From: an uncultured Pelagibacteraceae bacterium
Lineage (GTDB): Bacteria; Pseudomonadota; Alphaproteobacteria; Pelagibacterales; Pelagibacteraceae
Assembly (NCBI GenBank): GCA_902610315.1
Contig: CACLVA010000005.1
Span: 1 to 64,000 of the forward strand
DNA length: 64,000 nucleotides
Direction: 5' to 3'
Positions within the stretch are counted from its first letter, which is position 1. Each line of letters starts with the position of its first letter. Position numbers and translations under genes: made by a program. Of this stretch, positions 25,712 to 56,131 are shown piece by piece. The notes under the pieces are model-generated. The model saw only the letters and a list, made by a program, of their open reading frames with translations. It was not told where the DNA came from and did not search any database.

Positions 25712-28322
<2,611 letters not shown>

Positions 28323-53766: not shown

Positions 53767-54687
53767 TTATGCTGAAGATTTTAGAGGATTCTTGATCAAA
53801 AATGAATGTGGTATGTTTTTTTCTTTTAATTCAATTATTGAAAAATTATCATTATTGCTAAATAATTCTCTTAAACCTTGATTTGTTACATTGTGTCCAC
53901 CTTGACTTGATGTAATTTTACCAACCATTCTGTAGCCAGATAAATATATATCACCAAGACAATCTAAAATTTTATGATTTACAAATTCATTTGGATTTCT
54001 TAATTTTTCATTATTTAGTATTTCGTTACCTTTTAATACTATAGCATTATCCAAGCTTCCTCCCTGAGCTAATCCCATTTTTTTTAATTTTTCAACGTCC
54101 TCGAATAAACAAAATGTTCTAGAATTATAAATGTCTTTTAATTCATCAATATAAATATTTTTAATATTTCTTTGATTTAAAATAGAATTTTGTTTGTATT
54201 TTATTTCAAAGTCAATTTCTAAACTAATTTTATTTGGTTCAAACGTAATGAATTTTTCACCATCATTATAAGAAATTTTTCTGTTAATTTTAATAATTCT
54301 GATTGGTTGATCGCTAATGGTGAAACCTGTGTTTTCTATTTCCTCAACAAAATTCTTTGCAGAACCATCCATAATCGGTAGTTCTTCTGAATTTAGCTCA
54401 ACTAGTAGATTATCTACACCTAACCCGCAAAGCGCTGCCATTAAGTGCTCAACAGTAGATACGGTAACACCATTTTCGTTTGTTAATTTTGTACAATAAG
54501 AAGCGTTTGAAACATTAAAAACGCTAGAATAAATCATATTGTAATTTTTTAAATCTGATCTTTTAAATATTATCCCAGTGTTTGGCTGGGCTGGAAATAA
54601 AGTCATTAAAACTTTTTTTCCTGAGTGAAGACCTATACCTTCAAATTTAATATTTTTTTTAATCGTTTTTTGATTTAAAACTGACAT
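53767..54687 (-). CDS. lpxC: UDP-3-O-acyl-N-acetylglucosamine deacetylase
   Basis: QKTIKKNIKFEGIGLHSGKKV, TVEHLMAALCGLGVDNLLVELNSEELPIMDGSA. Confidence 0.96.
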   Translation of the reverse strand: MSVLNQKTIKKNIKFEGIGLHSGKKVLMTLFPAQPNTGIIFKRSDLKNYNMIYSSVFNVSNASYCTKLTNENGVTVSTVEHLMAALCGLGVDNLLVELNSEELPIMDGSAKNFVEEIENTGFTISDQPIRIIKINRKISYNDGEKFITFEPNKISLEIDFEIKYKQNSILNQRNIKNIYIDELKDIYNSRTFCLFEDVEKLKKMGLAQGGSLDNAIVLKGNEILNNEKLRNPNEFVNHKILDCLGDIYLSGYRMVGKITSSQGGHNVTNQGLRELFSNNDNFSIIELKEKNIPHSFLIKNPLKSSA

Positions 54688-54750: not shown

Positions 54751-55464
54751 TTAATTATCAAAAAAGTTGAATATTTTATCAAATAAACCTTGTTTTTCTG
54801 AAGTATTTTCAGTGAGGATAACCTCAGATTGATTTGCACCATTCAATATTTTATATGCAGAAAAACACAATGTATCATCTTTTATATTATCTAAAAATTT
54901 TTTAGCATAATCATATGACACTATTTTTATTATATCAATCTTACATTCATTAAACAAATTTTTCACTTTATGAATAAGACTTTTGTTTAAACAAACAAAT
55001 TCTAACTCTAGTATAATCTTTTTAAATTTTTTACAATCAGGAAAAGAATTATATACTTTGTTGTCAACGATATATTTTTTAATTATGACATGCAGTATTG
55101 TCAAATTTTTTTCAAAATTATTAAATCGCTGCATTGCACCTCTTATAAGTTTGGTTATAACTTCTTTATCTAATTCTCTTTCATCAAAAATATCTTTGAC
55201 ACTAAACACTATACTTTGGTAAGATTCAGATTGAATTGATATATTTCCGCTACATATAAAAAGATCTAATTTTTTTTCTAATTTTCTTATATTCTTTTTA
55301 AGAAGATTTAATATTATTTTAAAATTTAAATTATTATTTAAATTATCGGGTATGTCAAAATTCACACTATTTTTAAATTCATTTTTCCCATTATCGATAA
55401 AGCATACATAAATTTTTTTTTCTGAAATGCCGAAATAGAAATTTGAATTCTTAGAATTACTCAT
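54751..55464 (-). CDS. Severely reduced FtsA-like protein (lacks ATP-binding core)
   Basis: Syntenic position after ftsQ; LFICSGNISIQSESYQSI...ILHVIIKKYIVDNKVY...IDIIKIVSYDYAKKFL resembles the FtsA 1A/1C region; C-terminal GLFDKIFNFFDN resembles the FtsA membrane-targeting helix. Confidence 0.6.
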   Translation of the reverse strand: MSNSKNSNFYFGISEKKIYVCFIDNGKNEFKNSVNFDIPDNLNNNLNFKIILNLLKKNIRKLEKKLDLFICSGNISIQSESYQSIVFSVKDIFDERELDKEVITKLIRGAMQRFNNFEKNLTILHVIIKKYIVDNKVYNSFPDCKKFKKIILELEFVCLNKSLIHKVKNLFNECKIDIIKIVSYDYAKKFLDNIKDDTLCFSAYKILNGANQSEVILTENTSEKQGLFDKIFNFFDN

Positions 55465-56131
55465 ATTTTATAATTTTATTATCTAGTCTTAAATCTATAA
55501 CTTTGGAGTTAATAAATTTCTTATCATTTAATAAATTGCTACTATAATTAATTATGTCTTGTGTATATTTAATAGGGAATTTTATTGATATATTGTTTTC
55601 TAAATTGACATTGAATCTACCACTTTTAAAAAAAACAATTTCATCGATTCTATTATAATCTAGCTTAGATAATTTTAATGTATTTATTACTTTAAGAATA
55701 TCGCTGAAATTTTTAGAACCAGAAACTTTAGGTAATTTTCTTTCTATTTTTTCGATATTTAATGTTTTTCCATTATCTCCTAAAATAATTTTACGATCTT
55801 CTAATAATATTATACATATCGGTTTAGCTGGAATAAAATTAATTATTAAAGTGTTAGGATAAATTTTTTTTATTATCAAATCTTTAGTATCATTTCTATT
55901 ATAAAAATCTTTAAAATAATTTTTTTCGATAAAAAAAATATTCTTATTAAGAATATTTTTTATTTCTTTTTTAATTAGGATATTCTTATTCTCTGAAAAT
56001 CCATTAACCTCAACTTTATCAATATAAAATATTTTTTTATCATACAAATTATAATTATTAATTGATGTTAAAAATAATATTATTAAGCAATATGTAAAAA
56101 ATCTAAAATTTTTATCTATTTTTAGATGCAT
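55457..56131 (-). CDS. ftsQ: Cell division protein FtsQ
   Basis: Single N-terminal TM, POTRA-like IDKVEVNGFSENKNILIKKEI, LGDNGKTL; located downstream of ddl. Confidence 0.8.
   Translation of the reverse strand: MHLKIDKNFRFFTYCLIILFLTSINNYNLYDKKIFYIDKVEVNGFSENKNILIKKEIKNILNKNIFFIEKNYFKDFYNRNDTKDLIIKKIYPNTLIINFIPAKPICIILLEDRKIILGDNGKTLNIEKIERKLPKVSGSKNFSDILKVINTLKLSKLDYNRIDEIVFFKSGRFNVNLENNISIKFPIKYTQDIINYSSNLLNDKKFINSKVIDLRLDNKIIKYE

Follow-up and report, generated by a model that had tools for sequence, protein, structure and literature searches.

FtsA is a protein of the bacterial divisome, and its need for ATP and for polymerisation is debated in cell-division research. In FtsA double filaments the lateral contact is made via the IC domains and the longitudinal contacts via IIA/IIB, and a peptide of FtsN binds in the IA-IC cleft (PMC7613929). 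In E. coli FtsA, subdomain 1C is responsible for self-interaction and for the recruitment of FtsQ and FtsN (PMC4281207), and deletion of subdomain 2B abolishes FtsZ binding (as reviewed in PMC4281207). Outside cell division, the nearest counterparts of the short FtsA described below are PilM of the type IV pilus and the cytoplasmic domain of GspL/EpsL of type II secretion. PilM is alike in its 1A-1C platform, to which a short peptide from a membrane protein binds, but it keeps the full actin fold, binds nucleotide, belongs to another system and gives a weaker fold match to the short form. The GspL/EpsL domain, an actin-like, membrane-associated adaptor of ~230 aa, is a conceptual precedent, but Foldseek relates it to the short form only at E=1.5e-5 to 6e-5 (TMq 0.36-0.38), and its locus and system are different.

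Pelagibacter species are among the most abundant bacteria of the ocean and are dominant in bacterioplankton. The sequence analysed here belongs to this genus (SAR11), its closest named relatives being Pelagibacteraceae, among them Candidatus Pelagibacter. In the window, that is, the whole stretch of 64,000 nucleotides that was analysed, the place directly after ftsQ is occupied by a short gene:

55457..56131, minus strand: ftsQ, the upstream neighbour (Pfam FtsQ_DivIB_C, E=4.6e-5, over the cut-off)
54751..55464, minus strand: short-form gene derived from ftsA, 237 aa, ATG start, subdomains 1A and 1C plus a C-terminal amphipathic tail
53767..54687, minus strand: lpxC, the downstream neighbour (Pfam LpxC, E=7e-92)

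The end of ftsQ and the start of the short ftsA share 8 bp. The gene sits in the mur/fts cluster, not in a type II secretion cluster, and its position is that of the full-length ftsA of congeners; ftsZ lies on the same contig past the end of the window (~C5:70163-71074). ORF calls and the Pfam matches of the neighbours agree with the initial annotation, made from the sequence alone, which had placed a 237-aa ORF between ftsQ and lpxC where ftsA is expected. The short form shares with canonical FtsA (E. coli, V. maritimus and T. maritima; profile TIGR01174) the locus after ftsQ, subdomains 1A and 1C, the last 1A helix and the C-terminal amphipathic tail, but it has 237 aa instead of about 400 or more and is devoid of 2A/2B, the nucleotide motifs, the longitudinal interface and the known FtsZ site. 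Full-length FtsA of other Pelagibacter species, for example HTCC9565 and L098, has the position, the tail and the linker motif N..EV..K..GFFEKLFHFF in common with the short form, whereas lobe II and its conserved ATP motifs are kept only in the full-length proteins.

The likeness of the 237-aa ORF to FtsA exceeds chance. TIGR01174 (ftsA) matches residues 52-187 of the protein (E=1.1e-6) with 28 bits, below the curated cut-off of 175.85 bits, which full-length Pelagibacter FtsA likewise does not reach, and Pfam SHS2_FTSA gives a weak match under its cut-off (E=0.027). Profile-profile comparison of 12 short orthologues with 10 full-length congeners gave a probability of 99.9% (E=1e-34, residues 5-189). 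Among solved structures, the short-form profile matches E. coli FtsA (7q6d, E=0.0014), and the profile of the full-length congeners matches the FtsA structure 1e4f (E=1.7e-13). In addition, when the AlphaFold (AF2) model of the short form (pLDDT 82.2) was searched with Foldseek in the PDB, the first 19 matches were all FtsA chains, followed by PilM and then by GspL/EpsL; the fold is FtsA-like and not an unrelated one. The model of a full-length congener shows the canonical FtsA fold, and the part of it that is absent from the short form is 2A/2B. The SHS2-like 1A/1C region claimed in the initial annotation is therefore present according to the orthologue profiles and the fold matches, although the Pfam model by itself falls short. 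The decisive evidence on identity is comparative, because congeners carry either the short ORF or a full-length FtsA at the same locus. Locus, profile, fold and the comparison with full-length congeners at this locus thus lend strong support to the earlier description of the ORF as a stripped-down FtsA that consists of the 1A/1C part and an amphipathic tail.

Short FtsA is spread within Pelagibacter. Alignment of the syntenic ORF across relatives gave two discrete length classes among 79 distinct sequences, with 51 of 231-241 aa, 28 of 368-399 aa and none between. In a census of the genus, 281 of 399 species had a match, and among the matches listed there are more than 100 frames that are complete at about 220-246 aa, those of the single-contig genomes G322 and G408 among them. 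Elsewhere in the family and the order, frames of other genera are about 397-407 aa long among the matches listed in full. In the Alphaproteobacteria, SHS2_FTSA matched in 148 of 157 genomes, and, apart from a single frame at the end of a contig, none is shorter than 398 aa. Since the sample consists mostly of single-cell and metagenome assemblies, an assembly or frameshift artefact concealing a full-length ftsA might be suspected, but it deserves almost no credence: it is contradicted by repeated independent observation, dozens of independently made assemblies showing the same junction and both single-contig genomes having short frames, and no 2A/2B sequence of FtsA was found elsewhere in the own genome. 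Neither was a second FtsA-like gene, full-length or otherwise, found in the own genome (assembly 89% complete) or in the closed congeners examined. Two further matches to TIGR01174 / PF14450 were set aside, one being MreB (25712-26746) and the other a 643-aa ORF on contig C1, taken for DnaK from its length and the matched region.

The short form is laid out as follows, from the N-terminus to the C-terminus:

55228..55464, minus strand: first part of subdomain 1A, residues 1-79 (from AF2 secondary structure; phosphate-1 motif degraded; boundary approximate)
54991..55227, minus strand: subdomain 1C (SHS2-like), residues 80-158 (aligned to E. coli FtsA 7q6d; boundary approximate)
54895..54990, minus strand: second part of subdomain 1A, residues 159-190, ending in the invariant-Tyr helix (AF2 H184-190)
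54880..54894, minus strand: junction, residues 191-195, the site where ~140 residues (2A/2B) are absent
54844..54879, minus strand: C-terminal helix of 1A, residues 196-207 (AF2 H196-207, equal to H331-342 of the full form; alignment)
54790..54843, minus strand: linker with conserved N..EV, residues 208-225 (from anchor-to-anchor spacing)
54754..54789, minus strand: amphipathic tail GLFDKIFNFFDN, residues 226-237, a putative membrane-targeting helix (conserved Phe, hydrophobic moment)

The alignment of short and full forms contains a single clean gap: past the helix that carries the invariant Tyr (present in 51 of 51 short and 26 of 28 full forms), the short forms pick up at the last 1A helix, and the gap spans elements 194-326 (E194 to E326) of the full-length model, which are 2A and 2B. 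The anchor columns of the junction are 14-16 residues apart in 51/51 short forms versus 156-178 in the full forms, and those of the linker are separated by 22 residues in 51/51 short and 22/28 full forms. Lobe II with its actin-type ATP-binding motifs, conserved in the full forms, is absent from 51/51 short forms, and with it 2B, the known site of the FtsZ C-terminal peptide. Of the phosphate-1 residues, the full forms have Asp in 26/28 and Gly in 28/28 sequences; the short forms have lost both (Gly left in 2/51). Subdomain 1C carries a conserved ILHxIIxxYxID stretch, the His of 1C being kept in the short forms. With 2A/2B absent and phosphate-1 degraded, the sequence shows the loss of the ATP-binding, polymerising lobe, in line with the earlier claim that the actin ATPase core is missing. 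The 1A/1C part, however, does not jump directly to the tail as had been supposed; between the two lie the C-terminal 1A helix (196-207) and a linker whose length is constant. The tail itself is amphipathic, as proposed: the last 12 residues have a hydrophobic moment of 0.59, which 2% of shuffles equal or exceed, and two Phe columns are invariant in 79/79 sequences, short and full. In the AF2 model the tail forms a helix at residues 227-235, but with pLDDT mostly <50, a low confidence that counts against the adaptor reading given below.

In close pairs, dN/dS is 0.15-0.24 for the short forms, 0.12-0.15 for the full forms and 0.04-0.12 for lpxC. Short FtsA is therefore under purifying selection, and the excess of its dN/dS over that of lpxC was counted against an adaptor role. 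Some copies are interrupted: in the closed genome G012 a frameshift in an A/T-rich run (L058:3400-3960) splits the short ftsA, either by sequencing error or by a real break, and stops occur inside the short ftsA of G164 and G512. In addition, a full-length ftsA in G010 (L053) has an in-frame TAA exactly at the 1A/2A boundary. The broken copy in a closed genome and the stops in a few others, together with fast sequence evolution and a dN/dS slightly above that of the full forms, would suit a relic in decay that precedes the loss of ftsA from streamlined genomes, but such a relic is very improbable in view of the intact frames, the nearly fixed junction, the fixed linker length, the 51 distinct sequences in deep clades, the dN/dS near 0.2 and the invariance of tail and 1C residues.

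As for the origin of the short form, short and full states interleave on the neighbour-gene tree with 3-4 changes, and holding the short forms together on that tree is rejected (p-AU 0.0015). A tree built from the FtsA region common to both forms places all short forms in one group (SH-aLRT 99.8). This grouping depends on N-terminal columns; trees from 1C alone, or from the region minus residues 1-45, do not recover it, and it is not rejected with these data either (p-AU 0.13 and 0.30). The trees are compatible both with one deletion followed by gene exchange and with several deletions having the same junction.

Taken together, we hold with good confidence that the ORF is the orthologous ftsA after a precise in-frame loss of lobe II and that it is probably a nucleotide-independent membrane adaptor for the divisome. 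The minimal tether or adaptor would work as follows. Through its tail, short FtsA would sit on the inner membrane; docking of other divisome proteins, and perhaps lateral self-association, would fall to the 1A-1C face. Such a protein would be unable to bind ATP in an actin cleft, to form actin-like longitudinal filaments or, lacking 2B, to hold the FtsZ peptide in the known manner; that is, the docking and membrane parts would be retained and the ATP, longitudinal and FtsZ parts dropped. As for docking partners, neither short-form nor full-form species of the genus yielded a recognisable FtsN-like SPOR protein, which weighs against the adaptor reading; the SPOR-domain matches considered for this part (L171-L182) are RlpA-like lipoproteins.

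The half of the adaptor role that concerns FtsZ is in doubt because 2B, needed for FtsZ binding in E. coli FtsA, is gone. That FtsZ might have lost its peptide together with 2B was rejected: the C-terminal peptide (L/F)EIPAFLRRQK (DLEIPAFLRRQKN) is conserved whether a species has the short or the full form, so it must still have a binding partner. Pelagibacter FtsZ is long (frames of 478-545 aa), with a variable acidic linker ahead of this peptide. SepF as a replacement anchor had no match in 10 genomes, and to our knowledge ZipA is not expected in Alphaproteobacteria. The conserved peptide and the two missing anchors favour the main rival to the adaptor, namely that short FtsA still tethers FtsZ because the loss of lobe II has uncovered a new binding site for the FtsZ peptide on 1A or 1C; with the known site absent and other proteins possibly holding the peptide, we consider such a tether conceivable but rather unlikely. 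Our preferred reading is a membrane adaptor that does without nucleotide; since the known 2B site is missing, FtsZ would have to be anchored either by a new surface of short FtsA or by another protein.

Short FtsA is a variant of a known protein and not a new kind of system. The open-access literature searched, including for SAR11/Pelagibacter together with FtsA or FtsZ, yielded no account of an FtsA that lacks lobe II. Evolution has removed from this protein in Pelagibacter the lobe responsible for ATP binding, polymerisation and FtsZ binding, and in close relatives the complete protein still stands at this locus. The short form sets the functions of 1A-1C and of the membrane part apart from those of the remaining protein, and the two forms at one locus are a natural comparison for testing the function of lobe II. 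The loss of this lobe implies another way of holding FtsZ at the membrane. It appears fairly likely that division proceeds without an ATP-binding, polymerising FtsA in much of Pelagibacter, a single actin-fold lobe serving as membrane adaptor and the unchanged FtsZ peptide being anchored by a new surface or another protein. Because the lobe for ATP, polymerisation and the FtsZ ring is lost, Pelagibacter with the short form must build its division ring differently.
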